Below are positions 4,861 to 45,297 of a stretch of 64,000 nt of DNA, piece after piece. A model generated the notes under the pieces. That model was given only the letters and a program-made list of their open reading frames with translations. It searched no databases and was not told where the DNA came from. The position numbers and the translations under genes were made by a program. The DNA comes from Utricularia gibba. Lineage: Eukaryota; Streptophyta; Magnoliopsida; Lamiales; Lentibulariaceae. The stretch's first letter is position 1; every line of letters begins with the position of its first letter. The stretch covers positions 5,022,001-5,086,000 of the forward strand of contig CM007990.1 of NCBI GenBank assembly GCA_002189035.1, in the 5' to 3' direction.

Positions 4861-6284
4861 TCATTTTCCTTTCTCCAGTACAGAAGAGAAGTCCTCAAGC
4901 CACAAATTGTTAACAGTAGAAGTCCTGAGCATAAGGGGATTGTTCCAGTTATTGGCCTCACTACCAGCAACCCAACTCATCATCAGCTTGTTAACGTACA
5001 AGCCATCAATGTATTCCATCATGAATCCTCCGGTCGACCGGTTAACCAGCCCCTGGCATCCAGGCCGGTAGTCCACAACCTCCCCACCGGAGAAGTTCGT
5101 CCATCTTTTGAACACCAAGTTCACATTGAGGAACTTTATATCTCTCAAGAGCTGGCCCCTGAAACCAGACAAGAACACCCCATTTTCCGACGTTCCGGTG
5201 ATGTTGATGAACTTGATATCGGTGATTGAACCGGCTGTGGCCTTCTCGTCTCTCGGACAGCTTGTGATATAAATCGGCTCAGCTCTTCCCCACCATGATT
5301 CGTCGTAGTACCTGGTGCTGATGTTGATGTTTGAGAAGGTAACATCGGAAACATTCCCTCCATCTCTTATCTGCAACCCAAGGCCTCTGTGTGATTCCAC
5401 AATGGTGATACTATCAAACAACAATCCTCTGAAAGGAAAAGAGCTTGCGCTCCCAAGTTTGATAGCCGAAGATTTCGAGCGTATCCAGCAGTCCACAGCC
5501 GTGACATTGTGCACCGGGGCGGTGTTAGTCTTGAGGCAAATCCCATCGTCTCCGGTGTCGATTCGACACCGAGAAATGATGGTGTTGCTCGAGTCCTCGA
5601 GATCGATGCCATCGTTGTTAGGCGTGTTGAAGTCGCCGGAGATGGAGATGCCATGAATCCACGTGTTCTCTGAACGCACGATGTGTAAACACCAGTAAGC
5701 AGGCTGATTGAAGCTCACGTTCCAGATCCTTACACCTCTGCAGCCAATGAAACCAACGAGTCGCGGCCTGCACTCGTCGCCCAAACAGGGGCCGGTTTCG
5801 TTCCAACTCACCATCACATTCTTCCGATTATCAAACCTCTTCACGAATTTCAACCCCTGGCCGTTAATCTCCCCTCCGCCGGTAATCCCTACCTCCGCCG
5901 CATCCTCCGCCAGCACCACATACCATTTCTCCCGTTCCTCCGGTAGTCCTCCAGATGCGTTCCTCCGAGAATCCTCGCGTCACTGGATATGTTCAGTACG
6001 ACGCCGGATCGCAGGTACACTGTCCGTGTGAGATAGTCCCCGGCGGGGAAAGTGACGTAGCATTGAGTGTTGAAAATCGCGAAGGCGGCGGCGCAATCAT
6101 TGATAGCTGATTGTATCGCGGCGGTGTCGTACTTCCGTCCATCTCCGACGGCGCCGTAGTCGTCAACGGAGAGAGAGATGGGACTGGCTGATCTGATAAC
6201 GGGCAACCGCGAGGCGAGTGAAGGCAACGGAAAATTAACGACAAGTAGAAGCAGAAAAACCGATGGGACGGAAATTGTTTCCAT
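4861..6284 (-). CDS. polygalacturonase-like GH28 protein with a 1-base frameshift
   Basis: Secreted pectin-acting family (pectin lyase-fold beta-helix). Apparently intronless, about 474 residues if one missing base is allowed for, close to the usual 470-490. It starts with a signal peptide (METISVPSVFLLLLVV to about residue 25). The frame breaks at about 5942: the first frame reads to GGTHLEDY and then leaves the family, while conserved sequence resumes one frame over at EEREKWYVVLAEDAAEVGIT. Family segments are NNDGIDLEDS, TGDDGICLK and SHRGLGLQIRDGG. The classical RIK motif is not seen; the equivalent region reads AEPIYIT. This fits the divergent plant clade of 'probable polygalacturonases', so activity is uncertain. 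Consensus error or real recent mutation are both possible. It is divergent from the apyrase gene. Confidence 0.82.
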
Positions 6285-7159
6285 CGTTTCTCTGCTCTTT
6301 CAGAACGGAGACGGACGGCGACGTTTTACCCCATCCATGTTTTCGAATCCTATCCGAAAAAAGCTCTAAAATTTGAATTTTTATCATATAATATTCTATT
6401 TGCATATTTAAATACTCTCATCTTATAAACAACATAATCGAGCACAGTTTCACATTGAAAATAAATATTTAAAATCATGACATTTAATTATGAAATATAA
6501 TATATTATTATACAAGTATCATTGCAATTGTTTCAATCGAATCCATTTGAGATTCGTAAAATTTATATATCAAATATATTTCTAATTTTAATAACATAAG
6601 ACGTATTTATTAAAATATAAATAGTAGAAATGTACATTTAAATTTAAATTTAATATTAAAGTTTTCTTAAAAATCATATTTAAGATCATAAGTCTTAATT
6701 AGAAAATTAGGGATTTGAAAGTGGGATTTGTGGACGCCATTCTTTGGATATCTTCCCAATGATGTAGGTTGAGATCTAGATTCAATAGGAGTGATCACTG
6801 TACATGTTTTCCTTCGACTGAGGTGGGCCGTGGGGAGGAGGGAATCTGGTGATTCAAGAATGGTGGGGGAAGGGAAAATGGACAACTGAGGGGATCAAAG
6901 CGAATAGGGTTTGGTTCTTTCTGGTTATCTTGGTACGTCTTTCATTCTTTCCGGCATACAGCAAATAGGGGAGATAGATTCTTGGTTTTGAGGCATAAAG
7001 AGAAGAGAGAGGGCTTAATGAATGATCCCCTCATCCAAGGGCCCTCTCCATTTTCGGATTCCTGTTTAACACGTTATAGAGAAGAGGTATAGGAGTAGGA
7101 TTGACGTCGCCGTTGAAATATTGAAATTTATCCTATGCTTCCTGGAATTTGCGTCTTTG
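6285..7159. promoter_or_regulatory. divergent promoter region, polygalacturonase / apyrase
   Basis: About 875 bp, very AT-rich from 6370 to 6700, then more balanced. A telo-box-like TAGGGTTT lies at 6905-6912, about 250 bp upstream of the apyrase ATG; such boxes are common in promoters of growth-related plant genes. No protein-coding feature is supported. Confidence 0.45.
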
Positions 7160-9639
7160 ATGCGCCGATCAAATGCCCACATAGCAAGGTCTAATCTGGA
7201 CGAAAAGGGGGAGGGCATGGATCCGCTGAAGTTCCAATTTCGCTCCTCTCGACCCGGTTTTCGATCACCCACTGGGAAGTACTCAAGACCCAGATCGAGA
7301 ATTTGTTTGTATTTGTTGATCGTCACTCCATTTTTGTTGCTGTTCTGCATTTTATTCTTCTTCCGGGCAGCGTTCAAGAGAGGAGCAAATATGGCGTGGT
7401 TATTGATGGGGGAGCACCGGGACTAGAATACACGTTTTCAAGTACGAGGTTCGTGATGGGAACTTGGTTCTTGATTTTTCCGACACGGGTTCGGCGTCGA
7501 TGAGGGTGAATCCCGGTTTTTCGGCTTATGCAGACAATCCGGAGAGGGCTAGCGCCGATGTTGCTCAGTTGCTGGAGTTTGCTGCGAGACATGTGCCTAG
7601 AAAACAGTGGGCGGAGACTCAGATGCACTTGATGGCAACTGCAGGCATGAGACTATTGAAGAGTGATGATCAAGAGAGGATTTTGAATGTGTGTCGCAGT
7701 GTTTTGATCAATTCTGGATTTGCATTTCAGAATGATTGGGCCACTGTCATTTCGGGTACTTTTAACTACCATATCATGCTTTTTATCAAAGATTTCTTTT
7801 CTGCTTGACTTAAGTGGCTTTTTGAGTCGTTCTCTATCAAGTACTGTAGTTACCGAATGAAGGAGTCCTTGATCAAAGTTCTAGTTTATTTGCACATCCT
7901 TATCTTTTTGGTGACTCTTGCGTGACTTAATTGTGGCTTTGAACATGTCTACTTATCCATAAAGCCAGCTTTCATGGCTGAACCTTGTTTTAAGTGTAGT
8001 AATTGATCCTGTTTTCGTTTATTCTGTCAATGTAGGATCTGATGAGGGTTTGTATGGCTGGGTTGCGGCTAACTACGCACTTGGAACACTTGGAACTGAT
8101 CCAATGAAAACGACTGGGATTATTGAGCTTGGTGGCGCGTCAGCGCAGGTTAAAAATGCTGTTTTATATGCAGTCCTACTATTTGACTGTATGTACCCAT
8201 TGAAAATCTGTTGTTAGTGCAGGTTACATTTGTCCCAAATGAATTTGTTCCCCCAGAGTTCTCGAGGGAAGTTAAATTTAGGAATTTTTCGTATAATTTA
8301 TACAGTCACAGCCTTCTCCACTTTGGCCAGGTATCGTTTTTCCGAAACTCTTCTTTGTAGTAAAACTGTAAGTCATGTTGTTTTAGAGCATTGTCTATGG
8401 TTGCGCTATTTCAGAATGTTGCCTTTGAGTCTTTGCAAGAATCTCTTGTTTCTTCAGCTCAAGAATTAGGTACGTAATTTAAGGTGAAGTGTTGATTGTC
8501 AAAGTAATTAATGGCTTCCGCTTTCCTGAATGATGAAATGAAATCTTGCCTCCGAGCTTTTTCTCTTGAGGTAGTTTCTGTAAGCAATATTTTTCTCAGT
8601 GATGCCCTACAAGGTTTTGAGCTCAATGTGTTTCAAAATATGCTATTGAGTTCGCTATCATGGTGCAGCTGGGGAATCTATTGTGAGAGTAAAAGTGACC
8701 GATCCCTGCACTCCTCGGGGATATGAACCTGAAAATGGACCAAGCATGCCATCTACAGATTTTTCATTCATGAAAGATCAGTACCACTCTAGACTGCAAC
8801 CAAGTGGTAATTTTTCGGAGTGCAGACTAGCATCACTGAAGTTGCTGCAGAAAGGCAAAGGTTCTATCTTTGATTTCTCACATTGTTTTCTTTTAACACC
8901 CCTGACCTGTGCTTTTACTGCACTCTGTGAAATGCAGATAAGTGCTCATATACGACTTGCCATATTGGGTCGATATTCGTACCGAAGCTCCATGGAACAT
9001 TTTTGGCTACAGAAAATTTTTTTCACACGTCTAAGGTATAGTTTTATTTCTGGCTTTCTACTGAATAAAACATTTCATGCAGGGAGTCCTTCTGAATTTG
9101 GATGAAATAGTTCTTTGGTCTAGGTGAAAAGGCCCTTCTTTCTGATCTAGTCGATGCTGGGCAGCAGTTTTGTGGTTCAGAATGGTCGATACTAACACAC
9201 AGATACAGTTCATTCGACCACGAAGAACTTCTTCACTACTGCTTCTCTTCTGCATATATAGTCGCCCTCCTTCATGATAGTCTTGGAATTGCTGTGGATG
9301 ATCAGAGGTACTTGATCATTTTTAGTAGACATGAATCTACCTGGTTGTGCAGCAACATCTTAATCATCTTTAAACAGGATTCGATACGTAAACCAGGTGA
9401 ACGGCATCCCATTGGATTGGGCAGTGGGAGCCTTCATCCTTCGTGGTTCCGATCTGCTCCCTGAGGTCGAAGATGTCTCACCAAGCCAGGAACCTTCTTC
9501 CCCGCTGCTGCTGGTTTCCGGCATGGTCGTCATCTTTGCGCTGGCACTGTGGCTTATGTTGAAATGGAAGAACCCCCAGGTGAAAACAATCTATGATCTA
9601 GAGAAAGGCAAGTACATAATCACACATGTGAGCAGATGA
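7160..9639 (+). CDS. membrane apyrase (GDA1/CD39), APY6-like, two frameshifts in exon 1
   Basis: NTP/NDP-hydrolysing ectoapyrase-type enzyme. Eight exons: 7160-7755, 8036-8148, 8223-8330, 8415-8469, 8669-8860, 8938-9035, 9111-9307, 9378-9639; about 540 residues. The start MRRSNAHIARS followed by MDPLKFQFRSS matches APY6. A transmembrane segment follows (LYLLIVTPFLLLFCILFFF). Apyrase-conserved regions are ACR1 (YGVVIDGG, frame change, TGTRIHVFKY), ACR2 (LMATAGMRLL), ACR3 (SDEGLYGWVAANYALG), ACR4 (GIIELGGASAQ) and ACR5 (NGIPLDWAVGAF). A second membrane segment (GMVVIFALALWLMLKW) and the ending TIYDLEKGKY complete it. Reading from the start, the frame shifts by one base at the AAA of 7387-7389 and again at about 7413, inside ACR1. 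Everything else is intact, so an under-called consensus is the simplest explanation. Confidence 0.88.
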
Positions 9640-10867
9640 CATCGATGATGTGTTGGAATCAATTTTTTCATGCCCCCCCTTGAACATGTACTTTACCGAA
9701 ACGAGTTGATGAATCTAATGTAGTTCTCAGGAGGGAGCTATGGTGTGGTTCTTGTGTGGCTGAGAAAGAGAACGCAGCATTTCGCAAAGATTCATCTCGT
9801 TTTCCGGGGTGTTTTCCGCTGCAGTTATGTGTAGCTATTTATGTCGCGCCGACAGTAGGATCGTGTGTCGGCATACCGCAGCTACTGTCTTTTCACACAA
9901 AAATGCTGAGCGAGAAAACGCAAGGAAAGCTAAGTGCGACAGAGAATGGAGTACAAGTACATACGAAATTGTTGAGAGGTAGAAGACGATGCAGGGCCGT
10001 TGGATCGGGAACGGAGCATTGTATCCGACGGCTGACGCAACACCGGCACGATTTATTCATTCATTTGTTTGATGAGATGTCTAGATGCTCAAGAGGCAGA
10101 TAAATACAAAATGGGATTAGATAGGGAAGTAGGATGCGGGATCCGATATAAGTCAACGAAACCAAGGGGTACCCAAGACTAAACTAAAAAAACGCGTGAA
10201 TTCTTCATAAAGATCCTTCCTTTATAAGGCGGAGCTTGTGGGATTTCTTGGCTGGGATTCAACGCTGCCGATTGCATTCGCTTCGTGGTTTCTGGTATGT
10301 GTTCTTTATTTCTGCCTTCGGCAAGGGGTGAGGTTTTCCTTTTGCTACCTCAATCTGTTCCATGTTTTTCTGATAAAACGGTGGGGTCTCTTGGGAATTG
10401 CATGCTCAGTCTTGAATTGCAGACAATTTGTGATATTGCTGCGAATGGCAGCGGATCGGCGGGTTCGTTCCCCTTTTGTTGTGGTGATTTCAGTTTGTTG
10501 TGGGTCGGAGTATGCTTTGTTTGATAGATAATTTTGGGGTTCTGTGTTTGTGAACTTGCTTTTGAGGGTACGCTGAGATGGGTTTCTCTTGTTTCGATTG
10601 AAGGCTTCTCCTTTGTTTGGTTTAAGCGATTGCAATTGTCTAAAGATCGTCGATTTTTCAAGGGATCAGGAATGTGGATTTGTAAAAATTTTGTTCTGAG
10701 GTTGAAAGCTGCTATTTTTTCTCAGTAGTCTTAATTTGATCGTTCTTTTTATGCTGAGATATCCGTTCGCTGGATGCCTAGGTAGGGATTATCGTGGAAT
10801 TCTCTCTGGTTTTTTATTGTGAAAGAGATCGTGTGAATAATTTTGAGTTTACGAGCACTTGGTGAAT
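9640..10867. other. apyrase 3' region and RING-CH leader/promoter
   Basis: No recognisable coding sequence. A TATAAGG element at about 10222 and a possible donor (G|GTATGT at 10295) suggest that the RING-CH gene has a leader exon near 10250-10294 followed by a leader intron ending before the ATG at 10868, for example at the TTTTCTCAG near 10720. This leader structure is inference. Confidence 0.4.
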
Positions 10868-12469
10868 ATGAGCCAGCTTTCAAGTCCTGAGCTTCGTGAG
10901 CCTCACTATCCAGAGGCAAACTTAAAGAAGCCAGAAGAGGCTGGGTCCTCATCTGGGGGCGCAGCACAAGATGATAAAGTGATGGTTTCCATAGATGGCG
11001 AGGGAGATGAGGAGTCACCGTTGATTGGCATAGGTGAGTGCCGTATTTGTCAGGAAGAAGATTCTCTCTCAAATTTGGAAAGCCCTTGTGTTTGCAGTGG
11101 GAGCCTTAAGGTATCGAAAATTTTGCATTTTCTAGTTCATCATTTCGTCATTCAAATGTTCTTGATTTCATACTTTCTGTGACATTTCTTCCACAGTATG
11201 CTCATAGAAAATGTGTCCAGCACTGGTGCAATGAGAAGGGAGACATCACATGCGAAATTTGTCATCAGGTGTGCAACTGTTTCCGATTCCTTTGCCAAGA
11301 ACGAGTATCTTAACTCATGGATGTGTTCAAACATATCCCTTTTTTGCATCTCTAGCCTCTTATCCAGTTGTTGTGCTTTAAAAGTGTATAGTAAATTCAA
11401 AACCCATTCTGTATCATGCACTTAACTAAGCATTTCATTATATTTTATCGATGAATCAGAAGCAGTTTTGTCATATTTCGTTGTGAGCCGTCTGAACCCA
11501 TACTATTTACTTCTAATGTAGAGATATCAGCCTGGCTATACTGCTCCTCCACGGCCTGTTTCTGATGAGACAGCCATAGATGTTGGGTAAGTTCTTTCTT
11601 CTCATGTATTTTTTCCATAGCTCAGATAAGGTTCAGGAAGGTCTCATTTCAGTCATCAGCATTGGTTTCATATTCTTGATTTAACAAATCATCTTTCTGG
11701 TTTGTCCACAGAGGAGTATGGCAAATTTCTGGTGCCACTTTGGATAGCAATGATCCTCGCCTTTTGGCAATTGCTGATGCAGAACGCCACTTGCTTGATG
11801 CTGAGTATGATGATTATAATGCAAATAGCAGCGGTGCCGCATTTTGCCGTTCAGCTGCACTAATTGTGAGTCGATGATACTGAGATGCTTTTCAGTGTAG
11901 TTGTTTCTACGTACTATGGCTGTAGAGAAGTTTCTATTGAGTACAAAAGTATTGGTATTTTGGACTGCAGTTGATGGCTCTTCTCCTACTGAGGCATGCG
12001 GTATCTATCACAGACGATGGAGATGGAGAAAGTGAGGAAGATGCTGCTACTTTCTTCTCTGTAAGTGATCCCACATTGCTTTCCTGACATTTTTGCATTA
12101 GGAATTTGCTGAGAAATGTTTTACCGCAGCTGTTCTTGCTTCGAGTCGTTGGCTTTCTTCTGCCGTGCTACATCATGATGTGGGCAATAAGTATATTGCA
12201 GCGCCGGAGGCAAAGACAGGTGACTTTCCTGTTTTCAGTACATCTGCAACAAACTCAGTAAACACAGCTGCATATACATGACAAGAAATGATTTATGGGT
12301 ACAGGATGCAACAGCAGCAGCACTAGCAGCAACCCAGTTTGCAATCGTTGTTCAGTCAGCTCAAACCAGAGGCCTCCTCGTGGCCTCAGCTGCCCCAGCA
12401 GTGACTCCCCTGGCGAGTCCATCACATGCCACTTCCTCTGCCGTCCCCCCAGAGCTCGATCGTGTCTGA
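10868..12469 (+). CDS. RING-CH (MARCH-type) membrane E3 ubiquitin ligase
   Basis: Seven exons: 10868-11110, 11197-11268, 11522-11586, 11712-11865, 11971-12060, 12130-12219, 12305-12469; 292 residues, all phases consistent. The RINGv finger spans exons 1-2: GECRICQEED, SPCVCSGSLK, YAHRKCVQHWC, CEICHQ, which is the C4HC3 order of MARCH ligases. It is followed by RYQPGYTAPP, a conserved plant block. Two hydrophobic segments (SAALILMALLLLRHAV and LFLLRVVGFLLPCYIMMWAI) are separated by an acidic loop and make a hairpin typical of this family (At2g02960, At1g14260, At5g38070; PIT1 group). The tail is Ala-rich. A likely role is ubiquitination at endomembranes; substrates are unknown. It lies downstream of the apyrase in the same orientation, as in Arabidopsis. 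Confidence 0.87.
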
Positions 12470-13699
12470 TGAATGCTGTCTTCAAGGATGATGAAGATCA
12501 AACCTTTATTGGTGAGTTTTCAAAACTTCACCGTGCAACAAAGTGTGTGTATATATTGGGGGGAGTACAATCAACCAGATTTAAATTGTGCATTTACTGC
12601 GAATAATCTTCTACCTGAACAAGAGGTGTCTGTACCCGTGTCGTGGTATCGGTATCTTCAGTGTCATAAACCAGTTTTATTTCCAAGTCTTGTACTATCT
12701 GGTCATTCCTGAGTTCTCATGTACCTTGAGCCGTTTTCATGATTTGCATCTCCAATTGTTGGCTAAAATGCTGAGCATGTTCTCTAAACCAGCGTTTAGG
12801 CTTGTCCCCAGGCAAACCTGCATAATTCAGTTTGATTCTTCAGTATCTTTGTCCACAGAAAAAACACACAGGATATGTTCTACCTTTAGTTTGAGGTGTC
12901 TCTCGGAAAACGTAAAACAAAAAGTTGGAACGTTACTCGAAACTGAAACTGTAGAGATAACTGATTTAGTATTAGTTCTCCCCCCTTGGAGTGCATGATT
13001 TTAAAGTAAAGCATCACAATAGTCCAATTTCAAGCATGTCTTGGGGAGTTGTGGGATGAAGCAATGTGAATAAAGGGAAAGACGGTCTCCCTGGTTGAAT
13101 GTCACACAAAAGAAGAGTAAAGAGATCTACTTACGCGTCTTAAAGACAAGGCAGATCTACCTATGAATTTGAAAGCAAACAATAAAACATCACTCAGACT
13201 GGCAAAAGATAAAGAAGCAGCATCAAGCATGGGACTGGCAAGCCAGATGTAATTTGCTTGCATGTTGCATTGGGAAGCGAGCTTCGGATTGATTCTAAAG
13301 CCAGATCTCAAGTTACCATAAAGCCATGTTAAGGAAAGTATCCTACTCACCGATTCCTACTTCCCCCTTCTTTGCTGCCTGGCTGTCCATTTCTTCCATC
13401 TCTCACTGCAACTCAAATTTACATCTCCATGGTGTGTTGGCACGCCCATTTGGAAGTGATTAAACTTGGTCTCGGGGATGGAAACCAAACTGCGCAGGAA
13501 ATAAAGATAAGGAACTGATGGAAACGCAGGAGGGTGCCAAAGAGCAGGGGTTAGTAGCTTCTTTAAAGGGTCGTCTTTAATCAACAAAGTATGATTCTTC
13601 TTTTTCCATCAGCAGCCTTGATGATTTTTCTGATTGGGGTGTAAAATCTACGTTCGCAGTACGGATCATGGACCCCCTCTTTGCTTTAAGTTCCTGCCA
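12470..13699. other. RING-CH 3' region and CLE promoter
   Basis: About 1.2 kb with no supported coding sequence. An AATAAA-type signal at about 13069 may serve the RING-CH transcript or a longer 3' UTR. The right part should carry the CLE promoter. Confidence 0.45.
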
Positions 13700-13706
13700 T
13701 ATAAAT
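13700..13706 (+). promoter_or_regulatory. TATA box candidate of the CLE gene
   Basis: TATAAAT lies 82 bp upstream of the CLE ATG. A transcription start about 30 bp downstream would give a leader of roughly 50-60 nt, normal for small secreted-peptide genes. Confidence 0.5.
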
Positions 13707-13787
13707 TGGATAGGATCATTCAAGAGTTGGAACCTGGATCAATCCCCATCAGTGGCTGTTAAAAGATTTTCACAAAGAACTTGAAGG

Positions 13788-14075
13788 ATGCGCCGTTTGA
13801 TTCAAAGCTCATCCACGGTGATCATGTTTGTGGTATTAGTAGCAGCACATTGCAATCAAGTTTGTGGCCTGACAACTGCAAGCTCGGTACTAAAACATGA
13901 AGGAGATCTTCGGCCTGTGATGACCAAGAATCCAGGTAAGCAGGAGGATGTTCGGATGAACAATCTAGATTCTAGCAATAGAAAGTCCCATGCAAACGAT
14001 ACAAGAGAGGTGTTATACTCGTCTAGCAAGAGACAAGTACGCAAAGGATCTGATCCCATCCACAACAAAAGCTGA
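13788..14075 (+). CDS. CLE45: CLE signalling peptide precursor, CLE45-like
   Basis: Intronless 95-residue secreted pre-propeptide. Residues 1 to about 27 form a signal peptide (MRRLIQSSST, hydrophobic VIMFVVLVAA, then HCNQVCG). A variable hydrophilic middle follows. The C-terminal CLE dodecapeptide RQVRKGSDPIHN lies at residues 82-93 (14031-14066) with only Lys-Ser after it. The sequence is nearly that of Arabidopsis CLE45 (RRVRRGSDPIHN), which has Arg instead of Pro at position 4 and Ser instead of Pro at position 7 of the usual CLE motif. CLE45 is perceived by BAM-type receptor kinases, restrains protophloem differentiation in the root and has been tied to pollen-tube growth. Its place between the RING-CH and PKS/SBH genes agrees with At1g69588 lying near SBH1. 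Confidence 0.9.
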   Translation: MRRLIQSSSTVIMFVVLVAAHCNQVCGLTTASSVLKHEGDLRPVMTKNPGKQEDVRMNNLDSSNRKSHANDTREVLYSSSKRQVRKGSDPIHNKS

Positions 14076-18361: not shown

Positions 18362-18582
18362 ATTACTATGAACCGTACTCCCAGTGACGCAGCACCGAAT
18401 GCAATAAACCAAAACTTCAAAATGAAGGATTCCGCTGCTGTTCGTAAATGCAGAATGCTTCAACCATAATCAGTTTTGACCCTCGGCGAAATATCCATCC
18501 GAAACCGCTGTCTGTGCCCACTGTTTGAAAAGCTTCCATTCCCAACCCGTGCCCGTGATTCAGTCCTCGTCAACCCTATATT

Positions 18583-18633
18583 TGGGCCGTATAAGCCCAA
18601 TATTCCAAATCCCCAAAAGGCCGTCTAGGCCCA
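18583..18633 (-). promoter_or_regulatory. site II (TGGGCY) cluster upstream of SBH
   Basis: TGGGCC at 18583, AGCCCA at 18594 and GGCCCA at 18628 lie within 51 bp, 220-270 bp upstream of the SBH start. Such elements are bound by TCP proteins and are typical of promoters active in dividing cells. The link to this gene is inferred from position. Confidence 0.45.
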
Positions 18634-23615: not shown

Positions 23616-23688
23616 TTAAGGATGTGAAGCGAAAAAAAGTCAATTCGTGAAGTGAGGTGGCATCTGGATCGGCATTTCGTTGACGAAT

Positions 23689-25576
23689 ATGGAGAATGCG
23701 AGAACCTTGATCGTTTGCGTGTGCCTCCTCTGTGGTGCTATCTGTGGATCATATGCTGCGGTTGCTGAATTGGGTCTTCTAGAGTAGTCTTTCAGGTATT
23801 CTTGCTTGGTGTTTTTCGGTGACTCGCTGCTTTTCTTTTCCTCAGTGGTATCATAGAATCGGCATCATCAGAGAGAAACTGATGTGGAGATTGCCACTCG
23901 ATCATTTTTTAGATTTAGTGATGGAGTTGCGATTCATAGTGCCAGAGATTGATATTTAGTTATTTCCTAGATCGCACATGATTTTGAGAGTCATCACTAA
24001 GATATTTATGAAAATATACTGCACATGGTCTTCATTTTTGGGTTTTTGATCATTTGATGCTTGGGAAATTGCAGACAAACTATGGGGATGTCGAATTTGG
24101 TTTCTATCCCAGCGTAGCACCGAAGACTGTTGACCACATTTTTAAGCTTGTTAGATTGGGCTGTTATAATACCAACCATTTTTTCCGGGTATTGGATTAT
24201 GGAAGAAGATACATTATTTTTTAATTGTTTACTGTGAAGTACTGAAGAAGGAAAAAAAAATGAGAGGTCAAAACCAAAACGTCCTCAGGTAGATAAGGGA
24301 TTTGTTGCTCAAGTTGCTGATGTTGTGGGTGGAAGAAGTGCACCTCTGAACGAGGTTCAGAGATTGGAAGCTGAGAAAACCGTCGTTGGTGAGTTCAGTG
24401 ATGTCAAGCATGTCAAAGGCATTCTATCAATGGGAAGGTAATTGCCTTATTATCTTCGCTTGGGATATGTGGATTATATCCTTTTTTTTTAAGCATCATC
24501 TTCGTTTATGTGGTGGGTACTGTTAATGATTTTCCTGGTTTATTTTCCATTCTTTTTATTCCTGTTGAGCTCAAGCACGCTACTATTTCATTACAGATAC
24601 TCTGACCCCAACAGTGCATCATCGTCATTCTCGATTTTGCTTGGAGATGCCCCTCATCTTGATGGCCAGGTTCACGGCCTAAGTTTTCTATAGCTATTGT
24701 CTTTATTCTAAGCATGATCCCGAGCAAAACCATTCTATAACCATCTATGATGTTTCTGATTTAGTATGCAGTCTTTGGCAAGGTCACTAAAGGTGAGGAA
24801 ACATTGAGAAAACTGGAAGAAGTTCCCACACGGAGAGAAGGAATTTTTGTAATGGTACAGAGCATTATATTTTTCATGTTCCCTTATATGTTTATATATA
24901 TCTTTTTGAAGCATACCAAATCGTCTTTTTGATTGCAACATTGGCTTAAGCCACTTTCTGAACTGCTCTTTAATTGATTCTTTATAGTCATAATTGCTCC
25001 TTGTTGATGTTCTGTTTAAAATGTATTGATGCTCTTGTTGAAATTGCATTTTCCACGTTCAGCCGACAGAGCGGATCAATATATTGTCCTCATACTATTA
25101 TGGTAAGGTTTGATCTTCTTGCTCTTATATATAAAAGCGCACTAGGCAGTTTGTAGCTGCTGTTCCGCTGTGTGCTCAATGCCAAAAAAATATAACATAC
25201 AATCCGAATCACATGCTCTTATATTTTTATTATTCCCCTGAAGCGCATTATTTATCCTTTAGATATTGCGAGTGACAATTGTGAGGAAGATAGGTTGGTT
25301 CTGAAGAGAAGGCTGGCCGCAGCTGCTGTTGAAATCGAAGAGCAGGTAATGCTCTTATGTAACGACTGTCACACATAGGACCTTTAATTTGAAGATTTTA
25401 GGAAAGCAATTATTATGTGGAATCATGTTCATTATTTTGTAAAAGTTGGGGAAAAGAGAGTTTTTTCTGCAACTTGAGAAAGATGTTGTGTTAATAATAA
25501 AATAACCCAACGTGCTCTTATTTCCTAACGTCTACATTTTGTCTTGACTCTGCAGAGAATGAAATGTTTTGTGTGA
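23689..25576 (+). CDS. CYP23: ER-lumen cyclophilin-like protein CYP23 with a 1-base frameshift
   Basis: Divergent cyclophilin of the secretory pathway. Eight exons: 23689-23795, 24075-24188, 24289-24437, 24597-24669, 24765-24854, 25063-25102, 25263-25345, 25556-25576. They give 225 residues if one base missing in exon 1 is counted (Arabidopsis CYP23, At1g26940, is about 226). A signal peptide opens the protein (MENARTLIVCVCLLCGAICG). The frame breaks in the GGG at 23772-23774: the literal frame stops at TAG a few codons later, while the other frame reads SSRVVFQ into the donor. Next come TNYGDVEFGFYPSVAPKTVD, NTNHFFRVDKGFVAQ, GILSMGRYSDPNSASSSF, HLDGQYAVFGKVTKG, and the C-terminal RRLAAAAVEIEEQRMKCFV. 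Compared with CypA the usual FHR, QFFI and Trp positions are altered, so prolyl isomerase activity is doubtful, as for the family. Confidence 0.87.
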
Positions 25577-28573
25577 AAGTAACCCAAGTCACCACTTACT
25601 TGATGATGAGCCGGTTTCCACCTCCCTGAAGCCATCCCCTTACAGTCAAATTGGAGTAACCCATCCAGCTGCCAAAGCACAGTGTAACTTCCTTTTTTTA
25701 TTTTACAACTCGCCCCACTTCCTCGGTTCTCCACCATTTCACTTCTCGAAATCTTTGTTATGGACGCAATGACTGACGGATGTAACCCTTCAGCAGGAGT
25801 CAAGCTATTATAGATTTTGTAATCCAACCAATACTGTAGCTTTTCCCTTCCGTTGCTGTCAAAGTATGGACAAAATATTCTATGAATTTCTTTAGGAATT
25901 CTATTTTGTCTTTACTATGCTTCCATCAACGTGAATTTGCAATCAAGCAGCGGGAATTCCCTCTGGGAAACATCAGTTAAGTTGCTGGTAATTCTGACTG
26001 AGATAACCTGGCATACCATGTCCAGAACCATGGAGAATTTTGCATGTTAATTCTCTTGACAGTTGAGAAACTTAAGAACTAAGCCCATTCTGATCACTAA
26101 CTTTCTTTCAATTTAGGTGCATGGAATTGATAAAACATTGAACTTGTTCTTTCGCATTCGTTTTGTCAATGTTTACTATACATGAAATGTAACTACAGTA
26201 GGCGAAAAATACCGTACTATTGAAATACTTTGACAAGAATGCAAGAAAACAAGGATGGAACGGGGAATCTAGGCAATTATGTTGAAGAGTCCAAAGATCA
26301 GAAAAAAAAAAATTATTGGCAATGTAATCAACTTCTTGATGTGACTAATCTCTAAGCAGGTACTGTACATCAGCTTTGAAGGATATCTAAATTGTATGAG
26401 ATGCCCATTTCTTGATGGTAAAAGTATAATGTCCAACTTGATTTGCAATATGCAGTGTTTTGCTGATGGTAGGACCAACCATAGGCCCTATTGCATCCTT
26501 TGGAGCGGTCGCAGATTGCTATAATGCCATCACACACAGGGTGCCTGTCTCAGACTCTTACCTCTTCATTATTGATCTACTTGTTTGATGCTTTTCTTCT
26601 TCAGGATAAGAGTCCTTTGATGTTTTTGGATGTAGCGACAGTTGCAGAAAGATAAGCGAGCTATCTTCATGGCTGCTAAAAGGATAAGGGCATCACACTT
26701 GGCAAGGGGATGAATGAATGAATGAAATGAAATTACCATCCTGTCCTGCCCATATGACATGGCTCCTATCTGAGTATGTGTGCTAATCCTGGCCTATGGT
26801 AATCTTAAAGACCAGACTCAAACCTGGAAACACTTTCACGTGATTGAAGGGTGATGTCGCCCACCCCTTGGCATCGTGCCATGTTTATTTCTTCCTGTGT
26901 CTGTTTGCATTTCTACCGGTTAGGTGGAGAGCAGGCAGATCCACGTTCTAACATATTTTCATGTACGCAGAGCTGCAATCTCAGCCGAGACATTCATTCA
27001 ACAGGAAGTGAACATGCAGTCTTGGACAAACTCTTCCCCACAGGTGATTTATTTGTCTCATTCTTACGGTTGTGAAGGAACAAGATCAATGAGAGTTTTT
27101 ACAGTTGGTTCAGCCACTCAGATTTCCCAGCCTTCTGCTCCTGCGGCTGCTGATGCATCTGCATGCATCCCACCTCCCTTTTAGTCTTAGCAGTGGCGTT
27201 TCGTCCTTGGAAATGGAGTATCAGATCTCCCACGCAGGTCCTTTTCCTTATACAGTTACCTGGTCCATTGAATCACATGCTTCATGTCTGGGGGTGTCGA
27301 GGGGAACGTTTAATAATCAGGTTGGGTACCTTTGAGAGATGGACACCAGACATGATTTTAAGTTCTACCCTCTTGAAAACCCATGTCCTTACTTCCAACA
27401 CATTCCACTGATTTTTATGTCATATTTCATTTGTTAGTACTCCCTTGTAGTAAGGTTATGTTTAGTCAAATCCCACATCCCCACATCGATTACATAAGAT
27501 TTGAAGAAATTAAGTAGAATGACTACACGATATAATAATGTAAAATTATAAAGATTAACTAGCTGTGACATTCCAACAGAGCTATTTTTATTCAAGCTCC
27601 TCAGTGAATTGCCTTCAACGGCCTGGATTTGGCGCCTCTGCGGCCAGGATCTCTTGGGGCCTTTCCACGGCATTTTAGCTTCTTTCTTATTAAAAAATGA
27701 TCAACCTTGTGGACATTTGACAGCATCTGCTCACAAAAAGCAACCGAGTTTGCGTAGCCCAGATGCCATCTGGTGGTGTGTTATTGCAATTTTTGAAACA
27801 ATTCGACATGCCCATTGCAACTTGTTTAAAAGTTTCCGGGTTGATTCGATCAAAACGTTTCGAAATGAGCATCAAATGCCAAGATCAAACCCGTGTGATG
27901 TGTGGAATGTGTTCAGGATTCCAAATCGGACATGTATGCTCGCCACGAACTATGTCTGAACCCAAGAGCGAGACAGGAAGCGACTGTGTGGGTGTTTTCT
28001 TTTTTGTTTTTTGTTTTTTTGGGGGAGAATTAATAGCATAACATGGGCTTGTATTCCCAGACTGTGACATGTCGAGGCCCCGCAAAGTATGCCGATCATC
28101 GAAGAAATTTTGACCCGCCGCCCCACCTCGCGAACCCAGAGCCAGAGAGCCCTTTGTCTTTTTAACTATTCAGTGCATGAACTTACAGTGTTTTTTCAAC
28201 TGTTCATCTGATTCACGGTTACTGTATCTTTCCCAATTGTTGTTGCCTCACAGCATCACTCAACCGGAGCCGGGTCTGTGTCGTGTTCAATGATGTTTCT
28301 GCTGTTGTGCACGACCATTTTCCACCCCCACTTTCAGCTTCTTTTTTGGAAGAGAGAGGGCGTTAAATCTGGAATTTACTGGAAGTCGAACACACAGACA
28401 CCAAAATCACATCATAAAAGAAGAACAGACGTCAACGTGTCTGCTTTTGTGTGCATTTCTGGGGGAAATGAAGACATGCTTACGTCCATTGTATTGTGAT
28501 TGTGTAAGCTGAATAAACAAATACATAATAATGCTGTGAAAAGTTGGGGGGTTTGTTGTTGAAATCCTCTCAG
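25577..28573. other. 3 kb intergenic region between CYP23 and the PRE-like gene
   Basis: No gene is supported. It contains an AATG-type short repeat at 26712-26735, a CT-rich T run at 27998-28020, and several short open frames without family features. The right half is presumably the promoter of the PRE-like gene. Confidence 0.5.
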
Positions 28574-35790: not shown

Positions 35791-38700
35791 TCAGAGTATA
35801 CCGGTGGCAATGCTTGATGTCGCGTGTATTTTTAGTGACTGCTCCGGTACATATTTGATGCCTGCCACAAGACGATAACCCCCATATTTACAGAATGTTG
35901 TCTGAAAAAGTCCCTTGTTCATAGAAAGCATACGTGAGGATTAAAACCAATGGATGATCCATTAACTTACCTTTTTCCTTGACCTCTATTTGTAGAGAAT
36001 CGAGCGTGATTATGCCATCAGTCAGCGGAAGTACTTCAAGCTTGATCGCAGCTGTAGATTGAGGGGGTACGCGACTGGTGGGAAAAGGGTAAATTTAAGC
36101 AGCCCGATATACATAAAAACAGGGGGGTGGGGTGGGTATGATAAGAAAAACACGTACCCTAGCGGAACACTGCTCTGTAACCACAAATGTGTGCAGCCAG
36201 TATCACCATTTGGAACCACATCAGAATCAGAGGCTGTTTGTTCACCAATGAAAAATGGTGAGAGGCCGTTTTCCACAGCCTTTTGTTCCCGAAATACCAT
36301 GTTCGACATTTGGGAAACAATTCTTTTCCTCTGGCTCCCGAATCTATTGGACGGCTCCATGGTGGTATGAAATGGATAAGAAGGTGAGCATGGTGCACTC
36401 AAAGGAACAACAGAAGGGGAGGTCAGTGAAGCAGGTGCGAGGACTGTCAAAGTGAGATTTTCAGAAGTCTTATTCGATGCTTGAAGTGTTAAAACCTGAC
36501 AATTTTGAACCAATGAGCCTGAAGGCACTTTCTGCTAAATAAGGGATGATTAATGGAATAATGGGAACTAAACCTGAAAAGGAAGTGGACCTCTGTTTGG
36601 CTCTTGAGTCAGCTCATACTTATCAGATGCTACGGAAATCATAAGGTCCCGAGAAATGCGAGGACGCCAACTTATTGGATGCTTGAAGATCAACTTTGAT
36701 TCTACAGACAATGATTCCATATAAAAAAGACCTGTAAGATTACTGTTACTAACAAACTATTGCAGAAGTATATGAATCCCAACTGTATACCAGTATAATT
36801 AGATCGGCATGATACCATGACTGCATACTGATTAGTGGGGTATCCACTCTCATTTGCTTCAGTGTTCAAGTTGGGCCATTGTGACCCAGCAGCACTAGTC
36901 AGGCGGCTACAGCTTTGTAACATCGGCTGCGTGAGGAATGTGGACGCTGGTTTGAGGATAAAAGAATGCTCTTCACCTCTCCTGGAAATTGTAGACAAAT
37001 TCAATAACAGCATTGAACAAGAGAACTTGGTTTGCCATGAAAAACCCAAAATATTGCACAATGTACTGCGAATGTAATTAAACTAGCATTTCCCAGCGAT
37101 GATTCTAGTCAACTAAGGAACACTTTAATCAAAAGCCTTCACCTATCAAATTAGCAAAACTTGTTGTACCAATATAAAGAATTCACAGTACCTCAATGAT
37201 AAATTTGGTAAAGAGTAGTTGTTCCCAGGTTCAATACAAGAAAATTGTTTTGATAATGGTTGTCCACCTCTGGATGCCTCTTCTAAAACTAATGTAACAG
37301 CATCTATAAAAACTACGATATCTGGTCCTTCTGTGGGGGAAATATTCTGGAAAAGAGAAGTCAATGTGATGTATTTTTTATCACAAACTGGAGCATCAAA
37401 CTAGAACTTCTGATCTACCAAAAGAGGTTTCTGGTGCTTCACACGAGAGACAAGTACAGAGCATACCTTTACAAGGATGCAAATGAGATCCTCAGTATTG
37501 CAATCTACAGAAAAAGAATCAATGTGTAGAGGTTGGATTACTTCTATTTTTCTCCTCCACCTGCGCCCAGGCCGGAATATGCCTTCTAAACCACATTGAA
37601 CAGAATAACGCTCTGGCTCCAACGGCACTCCTCTGAAAGATAACAGTTCACCTTTGGCACTTTTACTGCTTCCCGAAAACTTCTCAGGAACTAACGGATT
37701 CCAATCTTCTGGATCACTAACGAATGTCTCGTTTGGTGATATGTAACCATACAGAGGGGAAGTATTTGGGGGCAATGAAGACATTGAGGAACTTCTTGAA
37801 TGGCCAGATAAAGAAACCTTGGAGTTACCAGAGCCAGAAACTGCAAATCTAGCGGACCTACTCCAATTACTTGAACCAGGATTCAGCAGAGGACTTCCTG
37901 AAGATGTATAATTATCCAAAGGAAGCAACCATTTTAACAATTGACCACAATTATCGTGCTTCGTATCCCGGTACTCAAGTGTCTCCTTAATAGGTTTGTG
38001 CTTCTCAAATTGAAGAATCTCAAGGATAGGATCCTTAACAAACTGAACACCAACATTTGCTTGTAAAAGCACCTGCATTCTTCCAACAACAAAACTGAAA
38101 TTATCAAAGAAATTCTAAACCTGGAAAACCCAATCCTGAAAGTCATTTTCTCAGATAAAACAAGGAAAATGAGGCAGACGCATCTTAAGAGAAGTTTCAA
38201 GATGGGTGTAAGTTCAGTTTTTCGTTGTTAGAGCATCAATTTTCACTCATCAACTTTCACTTTACAAAGTGAAGCAAAAGCAAAGGATGAAGTTACATGG
38301 GAGTATGAAAATGATGATGTGAACACACAGAATAGAAAACAAAGCCTCACTAAAAATGCCATTAAAAAAACGTTTTATAGAAGATCCTGCAACTTTTTGA
38401 GAAAGCACAAATGCACTCATAATATCATATACTAAATTCAACCGTGGGCAGGAAACAAAATATAACATACATATATTTAGTGAAATATTAGAGGAACGGA
38501 CCACTAGATCTCCATTTGGAAGAGAACAGCACTTGACAGCACCCCTTGCTAATCCTCCACTTGTGCTAGCATCAACCTTTCCTCTCTCATTCATAACACT
38601 TGCATAAGTATTCTTTTTTGGCGTAACTGCACCTTCTACAGAATTTTCTGTCACATGTTCCTCAGAGGCTCTTTGCGCCTCTCTCTTAGACCAAAGACAC

Positions 38701-39645
38701 TCATCTGATCCAGCAACTCGAACAAAATAATATGAATTTTCAAACCTGTGTAGCAATTCTTCAGTTCTTTGTTTTTCATTCTCCTTCCTTAGAAGAAACT
38801 CACCGGTTGGGACATCTATGGAAGAATTAATGTTTCCTTTCCTGAAGTTGTCAGCATGCTGAATATTGCAGTCACCAGAACTTTTGCTTTGAGAAACTGA
38901 ATTTGTTTCTTCTATAAGGCTTCCATTTTGTATTTCAGGGCTTTTTCCAACCCCATTCTTATTCATGACAGCAGCGAATTTAAATGGAGTGATTATTTCT
39001 TCGTCTTGCTTATATGCAGAGAGACATGCAAGAATTTGGATTTGTTCACCTGCAATATGAAACTATGCAACTGTCTAAGAAACCAGAAGTATCATAACAG
39101 AAATTATATGACTAGAGGCAGCCAAATTATCATTAAGATAACACATGCGGAATGAAGAAGCAGGTACCCGGAAAAATAAAGCTTCGATCAAGAGGTAATA
39201 AGGATTGCATATCAGGTGCCTCAGTCCAAGTGTCAGGGATTTTCTCTGACAATTCATTTAACAGAAGAAGAATTGTATTAAGAAATTATCAAGTGAAAGG
39301 AATTACAAACATTTTGACAGAAAGAAGAAAACCCCATCAACAAGAGAAAGCCATACCGGACGGTATTATAATGAAGCCTGAATCTTCCTTAACATCTATA
39401 TGACCATGAACCTGCGAATTGTGTTCTCCGTTTGAATGAGCAGTGTTTCCATTCTCATTCCTATTCCCATCAATCTCTGCATCTTGAGTATCGAAACTCA
39501 CATTTTCAAGAAACGGATCATCCCCGATCAGACCCTCCAGTGCGTTACCAACTCTCGCCACGTAAACATCCTCCTGATGAGGCTCCTTAACGGGTTGCGG
39601 CAGCGGAGCCCCAGACCGAGTGTTAGACCGCATCAACAGATTCAT
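35791..39645 (-). CDS. large conserved plant protein of unknown function, TRAPP-like C-terminus
   Basis: Ten exons on the minus strand, in coding order: 39357-39645, 39168-39245, 38502-39049, 37467-38072, 37192-37346, 36791-36981, 36574-36731, 36158-36495, 35971-36074, 35791-35861. They total 845 residues with consistent phases. I cannot name the family with confidence. The N-terminus is acidic and Asn-rich, then IPDTWTEAPDMQSLLPLDRS and FIFPGEQIQILACLSA look structured. A long polar Ser-rich centre (SLSGHSRSSSMSSL) follows. The end reads PQSTAAIKLEVLPLTDGIIT, LDSLQIEVKEKGIKYVPEQS and SLKIHATSSIATGIL. This resembles the C-terminal beta-sandwich of TRAPP-type trafficking subunits (TRAPPC10/13, Trs65 style). 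Function is therefore a guess: an endomembrane tethering accessory. The donor at the end of exon 38502-39049 could instead be three bases earlier. Confidence 0.75.
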
Positions 39646-40069
39646 TTCGAAACCTAAATCCCACCCACAGCAATCAAACGAAAAAGAGAATCAAGTATCC
39701 ATCCAACAATGAAGCAAAAAAGGGAAAGACTTCCAATCCCAAATCCTCACAACTTCCCCAATTAAAGCACGAATCACACATACGCGTCGAATATAACAGC
39801 AAATGCCAGCAGCCAGGAATCCATTTCACTGTACCTTAATGGAAATGCTTAGTTCGCCGGAGCAGCAAAACAAGAGTCAACTTAGTCTCCGGCGGCGGCA
39901 ACGGAAAGAACAGCCACGGTTTCTACATCTACCTGACAAGTCCTGCATAATAACCTTCCAAACTTGACCCTACGAACTAACTGAAATGATTAAGCGTTAA
40001 TTAAATGATAGAAAAACAAGGCTCCCTCGACGTTTTACCCATTACATTTGCATTTTACCCTATTTTCAA
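39646..40069. other. leader and promoter of the conserved unknown gene
   Basis: 5' flank of the minus-strand gene. Mixed composition with a purine-rich stretch near 39700-39760; no TATA box seen. Confidence 0.45.
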
Positions 40070-40560
40070 TTTTTCTTTGAAAAATACCTTATATTAAGAT
40101 TTAATTTATAAATTAAATTATAAAAATAAAAATACATAAAACTTAATTTTTATTCAAATCATAATACTAAATCTGAAATTAAAAAATATCATAATATAAA
40201 CCCTAAAATCTAAACTTAAAATCTAAAACTTAAATTTCAAATCTTAAACCCGTAAATCTTAAATCACAAAACTAAATATCAAATTCTAAAATCTAAACCT
40301 TCAACTCTAAAATTTAAATCTGAAACCAAAAAAATTAAATCCCAATTAAAATCTTAAACCCTAAATCAGTAATCTTAAAAAATTATGAAATCTTAAACCT
40401 TAAACTCTAAATCAGTAATCATAAAATTATGAAAACTTAATATATAATATTTCTAAATTATAAATACTAAATATTAAACTTTAAAATTGAACCCCTAAAT
40501 TAGAAATCCAAAAAAAACATTCAAAAACAAAAAAAAGCATAAAATAGGGTAAAACACAAA
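40070..40560. repeat. degenerate telomere-like AAACCCTAAATC repeat tract
   Basis: About 490 bp of A/T/C-only sequence made of irregular units such as AAACCCTAAATC, AAATCTTAAACC and AAAATCTAAAC, with ACCCTAAA cores at about 40200, 40367 and 40494. It looks like a decayed plant telomeric-type (TTTAGGG) minisatellite. The surrounding sequence to 41290 is also extremely AT-rich and has no coding potential. Confidence 0.6.
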
Positions 40561-41545
40561 GAACAACTTATTTTTTTGGTAATTTACAAATCTTTGCTAT
40601 AACTAGGGTAAATGGCAAATAAAATAAAAAAGTTCAGGTATTTAACTCATTTCCCCAGAAAAACAAGGGCAAATTAATTCTTCTTTTTATGTTTTAAAAA
40701 ATACATCTTTTTACCATTTTATACAACATGCCAATTAAGTTATTATAATAATTTCAATTTTAAAATATTAAAAACTCCTTTTGTGTACCTCTTTGTTTTT
40801 TTCTTTATTAAAAAAAATATCTTTCCATTATCAAAATGTAATCTTCAATTGATAGAAATTGATGATATCATATGACTCATAGACACATATTAACAAAAAA
40901 TTGAATAATCATTTATGAATTGATATTTTTCAATTTGCAACCAGTGTTTTTAAAAATGAGTTAAAATTATTTCATGTGTTTTATTGTGGTTATGTTCTCT
41001 AAACATAATTTACTGAATTAATTATATTTAATTTTTAATCATTATTTAGTAAAATAAAAAAATAATTACAAAATTATAATATTTAACATATTAAAATTTA
41101 TAATATATAATCTTAAAATTGATTATATTTTACATAACTCGAATCACAGATTAAATATGAATTGACTTAAATCATTTATATAATGAATTTAATTTATTTA
41201 AATAAATTTAGTTATATTTTAAAATTAAATTCAACCCATTTTTAAAACAACATTTGATACAGATATTAGATTTGATAGAAACTTGTATAGTTATATTGTT
41301 TTCATATGAGTTGTAATGGACATGACAACATAGCCTTTCATATCAGTTCCATTTTCTTCCTTGCGTGGCTTCTCTCTCTCCCAAATTCGTCCGCTCCTCT
41401 GTTTCTGACTTCGTCCTACTGCTGGAGAGTGAACGGGTCTGAATCGTGGAAGAAGCCATGGCATTCCCATTGACCAATACAACGATATGAACTCCCCGAT
41501 CATTTAAAGTAGCAGCCTTTCTCGCTTCCCTTTTCTGCAAAAGCC
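40561..41545. other. AT-rich promoter region of the HD-Zip gene
   Basis: Very AT-rich to about 41290, then balanced leader-like sequence up to the ATG at 41546. No coding evidence. Confidence 0.5.
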
Positions 41546-42309
41546 ATGGGAGGTGAAGAAAGACAACAACTACGTTGCGTAGCAGAAGATGTTTCGGTGA
41601 AGAGGGAGGGGATTTCCCTCTCTTCCGGGCTTCTGGATGCTATCTGCTTCAATCCTCAGAGGGCTGCTGAAATGGAGGATGATGGCGAAAAACTGTGTGT
41701 CTCCATTCCCCCGGAGAAGAAACGGCGGTTGAGAGCAGAGCAAGTTGAGTTTCTTGAGAGAAGCTTTGAGGCGGAGAGTAGGCTGGAGCCACAGAGAAAA
41801 GCTCTGCTTGCTAAGGAGGCCGGGTTGCAGGAGAGGCAGGTTGCTATTTGGTTCCAAAACAGACGCGCGAGGTGCAAGAGTAAGCTTCTAGAGAGGGATT
41901 ACGCTTCTCTGAAACTGAGTTTCCAGAAGCTGAAAGCAGATTATGATGCAATCGTTAAAGAGAATGAAGAAATGAGAAATGAGGTACAGAACAGCTCTCT
42001 GCTCTTTCTTTCACTGTTTCTTATTTGTTGAAACTTCTTGTTTGTTCTGTTAAGATCATTCTTCTATCGGAGAAGAGGAATGAAAAAGGGGAGAAGCTCA
42101 AGAACGAGCCATCTGATGAAGGGGAACCCAATGCCGATTCTTTGGATTCTGATTTCACACAAGATCTAGAACATGATGACAGAAACAAGCACAGCCCAAA
42201 ACTTATGTTCGAATGGGATGAAGATGTGCAGCCTCCTCTAATCTGGGATTCCCAGTTCATGATCAGAGGTCATGGTTCTGAAAGTACCACCCATGGGTTG
42301 AGATTCTGA
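41546..42309 (+). CDS. HD-Zip class I homeodomain-leucine zipper factor
   Basis: Two exons, 41546-41983 and 42055-42309, 230 residues. HD-Zip I proteins bind CAATNATTG as dimers and act in stress and organ-shape responses. The homeodomain spans about residues 53-110: [60 protein letters not shown]. The leucine zipper follows directly (heptads in [19 protein letters not shown]) and crosses the intron. The C-terminus is acidic and ends at [13 protein letters not shown] with aromatic residues typical of class I activation tails. The residue after RAR is Cys where class I members usually have Trp (or Phe in the ATHB52/54 branch). Neighbouring PTST2 suggests ATHB54 (At1g27045) as counterpart, from remembered gene order. 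Confidence 0.88.
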
Positions 42310-42902
42310 AAAGAACAGTAACTGAAGAAGATCATCAGTAACAGCAGCTGGTTTTCATGAATCTGGGGGACCATCAGCAAGCAAGCAAGAAGAAGAAGAT
42401 CTGATGTTATGTCGATATGCTGTTGTTTTTTCTCCTTGTGAAGTGAAAAGGAATCCACCCTACATGAGATTGGGAGGGACTGACAGGACAGGATGCCCAC
42501 AAAAGTCAAGCTTTCGGAAGGCTTCTTCAATGCCACTTTCTTCGTTAGTACAACTGACTTTTGCGCACCATTGTTCACAAATTGGAAAATGACTTTTTTG
42601 AAATATTACAACAAATAAAATAATTATTTAAATTCAATATTTCTAAATTTTAAAAAATTATATGTTCGATTAAAACCAAGTCTGATCCTTCCATTCAATT
42701 CCCAAATTTTAAAAATAATGACCACGACTCAACAACAATAGTAATAAACAAAGAATGCAATGATATCCATTTAGAAAAAAAGGGCCACTATACAAGAATC
42801 AATCCCCTAAAAATTTAGTTCACAACTACAAAGGGGTAGGCAAGCATCTCAGTGCATGCATTCATCAGCTGTTAAACTGCAGAGTTAAACCAACCTGTGT
42901 GA
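42310..42902. other. convergent 3' region, HD-Zip / PTST2
   Basis: 593 bp holding both 3' ends. AAATAAAATAAT at about 42613 is a likely polyadenylation region for the HD-Zip. No coding evidence. Confidence 0.55.
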
Positions 42903-45297
42903 TCATGTTACGACAAGAAGATTATTCTCGTGTCCACTGCCGTTGGCAGTCGGACGAAGAGGGTCAGTTCTCCAGACCCCATCGACAATGAACTTGATCT
43001 GCAAAGAAATGAGGGGAATCACTGGTGGATTAGTAGTGGGTCAGGGCTGTTTTTAATTCTGTAAGCATGACTGAAGGTAATAGGATTACCTCGTATCTAC
43101 CAGGGTACAGCTTTAGATACAAAGAAAAGTAACCCGCTTCTGATTTATTCATCTTTCTCTGCAAATCAGAGAAGTGAAGCAGTGAGGCTAGCTAAAAACT
43201 TGTTAAGGATCGTGCAAACAAGGAGAAGATGCAACTGTGGATTACGGGGCTGGTGGAAAGAAGGTACTGAAAAGAAATTGATGTTGAAAGAAGGCCAACC
43301 TTGGTTGTCCATCCATCAAAAGAGCCTACCAAGAGAACTTCTGAAGCTTTTTCAGTCCATACTACAGATGTAGTACGAAGAAGTTTCAATGCCCTGTGTG
43401 CATCATCTATACGTTTCTGCTTCGATTCTACTTGCCTTCGTGATTCACTGTAAGCATAGCGCCCATGAGAAATCTAAGTGGCTGGCTGCTGTCACAAAAT
43501 CAACGATTACAAATAGTGGAAACGCACATGATTGCTAATGCCATCTTTCCCTGTAACACGGCTATTTTGGCTCTCAAAGATCTCAAACTCTCCTGAGCAG
43601 TCATGAATTCATTCTCTTTGAATTCCCATACATCATAAAGTGTCTCCGCATTGTTAACACGTTCACCTTCCTGGTAAAAAAGGAGAAAGAATAAGATGAG
43701 TCTATTGGCACGTCCAAGAAAATATGCAAATTTACGACATGATGCTCGGCACCTGTTTTGAAAGGTGCTGCACTCTTTTAGATCTCAAGGAATTAAGGAT
43801 TGCCTTGAGCTCAAATTCGAGATCTTGAAGCCGAACTTGAATCTGATGGTTATCCATATCAGTATCTTTATTGGTTGACGTAGTTAAGGCACGAAGAGCA
43901 TTTTCTGGTTGATCTTTCAGGTAACTTATTTCCGCAGCTGCGATATAAGGCATATTGTGACATAGAATAACATGGCAATTAACCCTTATCATTAAACGCC
44001 AGCTAGGAGATAACTACCTTCAAATTTCTGCAGATCCGCCTTTCGACTAATCCAAGATCGCCAGCTTTCTGGTTCAGTGCCACTCAAGTCACCAGAGACA
44101 CTCGGTTTTCCATTCAGACATGTTCCATCTTCTCCAACATTAGCTGGCTTTTCACAAAATGAGAAGCAGCCCATCCCAAGCTTTAGAAAGCAATATGAAG
44201 GCATTGACGAAATCATTTCACTATATAGCTAATAGCCAAATTAGTTAATTATGTGTGTTCCTCGGGGGAAAAAAATTACATTAGTACACACATGAAAAAT
44301 CTTACCAAAATCAGTTGACACATGTGTCTTTCTTCCGTTTCCACAAAGCTCCATGTTTGCACGATCCTCATTATCATTTTTCTCCATATAGATCTCAAGA
44401 GCTCTATTCCGCTGCTTCTCCAGTCTGCCTAATATGCCTTGTACCCCAGACTCTTTATCAGCACCAATCTCTCTAATGGTCAACAAGCGAATTTCATTAA
44501 AAGCATCCCAGAAGATAAGCGGCACCAAACCATAGTTAAGGTCAAGAGTTAATATGCTAACTGGAAGACAAGCAGAATTCAGGAAGGTCAAATCTCTTAA
44601 TTATCTACGGGAAATGCTTCAAATTGGCATTTCAAGTGATATACAGCAAAAACAATATAAACGATAAACTAGCATAAGATTGTTGTCGCAAATAAATAAC
44701 AAAAGTGAAATATCCAGAAGCCTCACAATGATTTCTCGAACATCTCCAGAGGAGATAAATGCGACGAACTCATGAACCCAGAATAAGAAGTTTCTTCAGA
44801 AAAGAGTATATCTTCATCTTCCCTACCAAATCCATTATCTTCTCCAAGACTTAACCGAGATTTGCTAATATCATGAACTACAGCTTCATTGGATTCGCAA
44901 GCAGCATCTGCTTCACCCCAGCCGAAAGCCAGCCACCCACCTCTCTTCCTTATAGCATCCGCCAAATCCGCTCTCCCCCTTTTCTTAACTCTTCCTCCGT
45001 GGGAAACATCGACGGTTTTTCAGATTTTTCCATGAAACCCAAAATCTCCAACTCTATTCGGTCGTCCCAGTCACTCAGCCTACTCCAGCAACGCCAACGC
45101 TTATCAAGTCCCACCTGCATCGGCAACCTCGTGACTTCATCAAAGCCAAGAAACCGCGTTACAGAGCTCTCGCACGTCCTGGCCCTTTTCTTTGGAAGAA
45201 ACGCGACACAAAGAGCGACTCCGCGATGCCAACTCGGAGCCGAGATATTGTTCGAGGAATTCGTAATACTGAACGGGCTACTGATTAGCGATAGCAT
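42903..45297 (-). CDS. PTST2: PTST2/FLO6-like starch-synthesis protein (CBM48) with a 1-base frameshift
   Basis: Plastid protein that binds malto-oligosaccharides and helps starch granule initiation (PTST2 in Arabidopsis, FLO6 in rice). Eight exons in coding order: 44727-45297, 44306-44472, 44018-44143, 43753-43937, 43528-43670, 43300-43447, 43090-43158, 42903-42998. They total about 501 residues if one missing base is allowed for. The N-terminus (MLSLISSPFSITNSSNNISA) is transit-peptide-like. The conserved KPSMFPTEEELRKGG loses frame in the G5/A4 homopolymer (plus-strand 44975-44983) and resumes as DLADAIRKRGGWLAFGW. Coiled-coil segments follow (QIQVRLQDLEFELKAILNSL; KIAVLQGKMALAIIESRRQV). 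A C-terminal CBM48 completes the protein: EVLLVGSFDGWTTK, YFSLYLKLYPGRYEIKFIVD, GVWRTDPLRPT, ending NNLLVVT. All other exons are intact, so an assembly error is likely. Confidence 0.9.

Follow-up and report, generated by a model that had tools for sequence, protein, structure and literature searches.

Genome assemblies made from PacBio reads are known to retain single-base homopolymer errors. A Quiver-polished bacterial genome contained 561 single-base homopolymer deletions (PMC4888979), in another PacBio Quiver assembly 205 indels were found, nearly all of them in G/C runs (PMC4832174), and the HGAP/Quiver PacBio consensus of Plasmodium carried thousands of homopolymer deletions before correction (PMC5964635). 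For the bladderwort Utricularia gibba, a PacBio/HGAP assembly of about 100 Mb with 88x coverage and a contig N50 of 3.4 Mb was published (PMC5793159); a further paper describes its Unitig_8, 6.8 Mb in size, and two genome duplications of recent date (PMC8333044).

The window analysed here, a stretch of 64,000 nucleotides, corresponds to positions 5022001-5086000 of contig C2 (GenBank CM007990.1) of the U. gibba assembly GCA_002189035.1. This assembly comprises 100.09 Mb in 516 contigs, with C451 (6,822,880 bases) matching Unitig_8 in size and a contig N50 of about 3.4 Mb, as estimated from those contig sizes that were seen. In total size, N50, its 6.82-Mb contig and its duplicated blocks, it agrees with the published PacBio/HGAP assembly, and thus PacBio is the probable platform. 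The initial annotation had attributed frame breaks in the window to a 454 or nanopore consensus, which is probably wrong. With these two platforms, bases are lost in homopolymers, and such losses would be typical there too. However, the assembly sizes match those of the PacBio/HGAP assembly and many losses are found in runs of just 1-3 bases (see below), so we regard a 454 or nanopore origin as very improbable. With a probability of about 95%, the five breaks described below are residual single-base deletions in a PacBio continuous-long-read consensus, most likely that of the U. gibba HGAP assembly. This is a known kind of assembly artefact, measured here and genome-wide, and no new biology.

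A contig-end effect as the cause of the breaks was ruled out: since 1.1 Mb separate the window from the end of the 6.19-Mb contig, no ragged contig end is involved. The sizes of C1, C2, C505 and C507 are round numbers (8,500,000; 6,192,500; 3,452,500; 642,500), as if cut at fixed steps. Positions 40012-40663 of the window are a repeat of about 600 bases with many copies elsewhere in the genome (85-92% identity), including one close to the window on its upstream side (C2:5018844-5019440).

Frame breaks in the window

The five sites were read in three-frame translation and compared with protein families. One-base losses of frame had been proposed for the genes encoding polygalacturonase, apyrase (twice), CYP23 and PTST2; all five are present, and all of them are net -1. 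At each site the missing base can be placed only within a short interval, as listed here:

4864..6284, minus strand: polygalacturonase (GH28) gene with one net -1 break; PF00295 and PF12708 matches in two frames
5938..5944, minus strand: polygalacturonase frame break at a CC run, by three-frame translation
7217..9639, plus strand: apyrase (GDA1/CD39) gene with two net -1 breaks in exon 1; matches to PF01150 and PDB apyrases
7365..7392, plus strand: first apyrase break (frame f1 to f0), bracketed only; AAA at 7387-7389 is one candidate
7408..7415, plus strand: second apyrase break (f0 to f2) at a GGGGGA junction inside the conserved DGGSTGTR motif
23689..25577, plus strand: cyclophilin CYP23-like gene with one net -1 break in exon 1; PF00160 on the spliced exons, duplicate on C451
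23770..23776, plus strand: CYP23 frame break at GGG, by three-frame translation
43030..45297, minus strand: PTST2-like gene with one net -1 break; weak AMPK1_CBM match; 3' limit approximate
44974..44984, minus strand: PTST2 frame break at AAAAGGGGG (coding strand), by three-frame translation

That the family sequence resumes in the next frame was shown by frame translation together with Pfam or PDB matches, that for PTST2 being weak. In the polygalacturonase gene, the frame starting with the ATG at 6284 can be aligned with an exo-polygalacturonase and further beta-helix chains in the PDB as far as residues 119-121, with the similarity ending at the break, and the frame after the break encodes the GH28 domain (PF00295, 2.1e-18). 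The proposed site at CC was confirmed, but this run consists of only two bases. The apyrase gene starts at the ATG at 7217 in f1 (start and membrane anchor), continues in f0 (SKYGVVIDGG) and then in f2 (STGTRIHVFKYE...; PF01150, 1.3e-27), with the two frame changes lying within about 45 bases. Since f0 has no upstream ATG, both breaks are needed. The AAA proposed for the first apyrase site is only a candidate, and at the second apyrase site the missing base is G or A.

Exon 1 of the CYP23-like gene reads ...AVAELG and then, in the next frame, SSRVVFQ/TNYGDV; when spliced, the downstream exons encode the full cyclophilin domain (PF00160, 5.8e-34). In the whole-genome-duplicate copy on C451, exon 1 ends in the identical SRVVFQ frame. 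This copy supports the end of exon 1 only, because the upstream part of its exon 1 may be out of frame too. In the PTST2-like gene, ...FPTEEELRK is followed by GRADLADAIRKRGGWLAFGW in the next frame, and a CBM48/AMPK-type domain is matched only weakly (8e-6, narrowly missing the curated cut-off). The gene is presumably PTST2-like, a name taken from a known N-terminal motif and this weak match to a carbohydrate-binding domain.

Positions 3149-61635 of the window pair with C451:825-867 kb as the two halves of a whole-genome-duplication pair, in which coding DNA is mostly 70-80% identical. In the C451 half, no partner of the polygalacturonase, apyrase or PTST2 gene was found, and searches of this genome revealed neither a close paralogue of the polygalacturonase gene nor a second PTST2-like copy. 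U. gibba has experienced heavy gene loss after its genome duplications, and the missing partners speak for active gene loss in this region. This favours the possibility that one or more of the five breaks are genuine recent null alleles, i.e. fresh pseudogenes, the more so as real single-base deletions prefer homopolymers too.

One-base losses in conserved gene families

One-base losses are found genome-wide and independently of gene function, in GRAS, HSP70 and DnaJ genes on many contigs. A census of the GRAS family revealed 13 clean -1 junctions with no room for an intron in 46 kb of domain matches. When 15 broken GRAS loci were aligned in a frame-aware manner to intact relatives, 20 losses and 2 gains were detected, the calls being less certain in that part of the alignments which used distant references; about a third of the GRAS genes are affected. 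In HSP70 genes, 5 losses and 0 clean gains were found in 32 kb, and the DnaJ duplicate on C451 shows a one-base loss, the copy in the window being intact. The exons found in the tubulin census (PF00091) are too short to inform on frame breaks. Altogether, 25 one-base losses stand against 2 gains in the window, GRAS, HSP70 and DnaJ (p=5.6e-6), a tally of well-supported sites only, one of which is near an alignment end. Thus, the deletion pattern is one-sided, as the initial annotation had noticed, but its statement that insertions are absent does not extend beyond the window, since gains occur in GRAS genes.

The coding breaks are located in homopolymers in 75% versus 51% (p=0.013), a weaker enrichment than in the redundant contigs described below, with the exact base being uncertain. 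Five GRAS genes on five contigs break at a common conserved G/C-rich run (GGCGGTCCCCC, GGAGGCCCCCC, CCCCCCAAG and similar), which is a hot spot for consensus error and fits context-dependent error. A common fixed slippery motif is not shared by the break sites.

The selection acting on broken genes was analysed in seven GRAS genes in comparison to intact relatives, most genes of the window being without close relatives here. Upstream of the break, dN/dS was 0.12, 0.17, 0.13, 0.09, 0.25, 0.19 and 0.11; downstream, in the same order, it was 0.09, 0.07, 0.13, 0.10, 0.15, 0.14 and 0.14. Thus, strong purifying selection has acted until now on both sides of the seven breaks (dN/dS 0.07-0.25), and these GRAS genes are therefore not decaying. 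Relaxed selection with dN/dS moving towards 1, or further lesions, as would mark a recent pseudogene, were not seen in the seven genes. For a very recent null allele, low dN/dS would be expected as well.

Redundant contigs and the rate of lost bases

Parts of the large contigs C304 and C412 are present a second time in the short contigs C241 (31 kb) and C316 (38 kb). The alignment of these copies over 36.2 kb contains 43 mismatches and 30 one-base indels, and 20 of these indels are located in runs of at least three bases, as compared to a background of 22% of bases (p=2.5e-7). Along 8.0 kb, C241 and C304 show 0 mismatches but 4 one-base indels, each of which lies in a run of 3-5 G or C. Because of the missing mismatches, the two copies look like one haplotype, and since substitution-free contigs nevertheless differ in run size, the consensus itself varies. 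In other stretches, some substitutions and longer indels are present, and therefore a part of the difference is allelic or paralogous. In one pair (L051 5544-6500 vs L054), all 16 substitutions are clustered within about 1 kb adjoining an HSP70 gene, which suggests gene conversion or a paralogous patch.

Many of the losses are in runs of merely 1-3 bases. In the large contigs a base is missing 13 times in 36.2 kb, or about 1 per 2.8 kb. The coding sequence of the window amounts to roughly 20 kb by our own estimate, made independently of a formal annotation; at 1 loss per 2.8-5 kb, 4-7 breaks are therefore expected, and five are seen. The error rate corresponds to about QV 34-36. A well-covered Quiver consensus usually has a better quality, and this speaks against consensus error as the origin of the breaks.

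Taken together, genetic decay has a very low probability as the origin of any of the five breaks: the same lesion in about a third of the GRAS genes and in several HSP70 genes, its 25:2 sign and the strong purifying selection flanking the tested GRAS breaks are at odds with it, and the 4-7 expected consensus errors already account for the five. Still, any single one of the sites could be a real null allele, because no redundant contig covers them: the genome search revealed no redundant contig spanning the five sites and no near-identical second copy there. Alternatively, the losses could be real throughout the genome and tolerated in thousands of genes by ribosomal frameshifting or RNA-level correction, in line with breaks that occur genome-wide and with a frame that always resumes. 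This we consider extremely unlikely, since redundant contigs with 0 substitutions still differ in run size and the sites lack a fixed shared slippery motif. Moreover, we know of no frameshift-tolerant decoding of this kind in plant nuclear genes.

Thus, the view that the breaks reflect consensus error rather than pseudogenes, already put forward in the initial annotation, is borne out by the genome-wide -1 lesions, the dN/dS of GRAS genes and the disagreement of redundant contigs in homopolymers. We infer that the plant's own DNA has longer runs at exactly these five sites. Single-molecule reads would under-call short one-base runs, here often of G or C, and in the consensus step the shorter run would win where support is thin, leaving about 1 lost base per 3-5 kb. 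Within a coding sequence, each such loss would mimic a recent frameshift, although the gene is conserved in all other respects.

Gene-loss counts and known assembly artefacts

U. gibba is a textbook example of genome reduction in plants, and its gene losses have been counted from the assembly. If one base is missing in every 2-5 kb or so of coding sequence, false frameshifts would be present in perhaps one fifth to one third of the genes. Losses or truncations proposed from a single frame break should therefore be backed by reads or cDNA. The label pseudogene is unwarranted for the genes at the five sites, and single frameshifts are no basis for calling gene loss in this genome. The artefact does not account for the loss of whole domains. 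The DCL3 protein of U. gibba, for example, reportedly has an N-terminal truncation, which we considered as a possible frameshift artefact. At the DCL3-like locus (C213:2.76 Mb) no Dicer-dimer match was found at E<=1, and by eye an SR-type splicing-factor gene is located on the opposite strand in the 6 kb upstream of the DCL3-like gene (C213:2754001-2764000). Thus, in this limited check of the Dicer-dimer domain and the upstream 6 kb, the truncation looks genomic and not caused by frameshifts.

Frame loss by under-calling of homopolymers is also what 454 and nanopore errors have in common with the breaks described here, but it is PacBio that fits this assembly. The HGAP/Quiver PacBio assemblies mentioned above (PMC4888979, PMC4832174, PMC5964635) resemble the present one in their homopolymer single-base indels, with G/C runs being prominent, and in their falsely frameshifted conserved genes, the less polished ones having roughly one such error every 2-6 kb. 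In contrast to them, the genome analysed here is that of a plant, the losses extend to very short runs (1-3), and the residue of errors is still present in the assembly.
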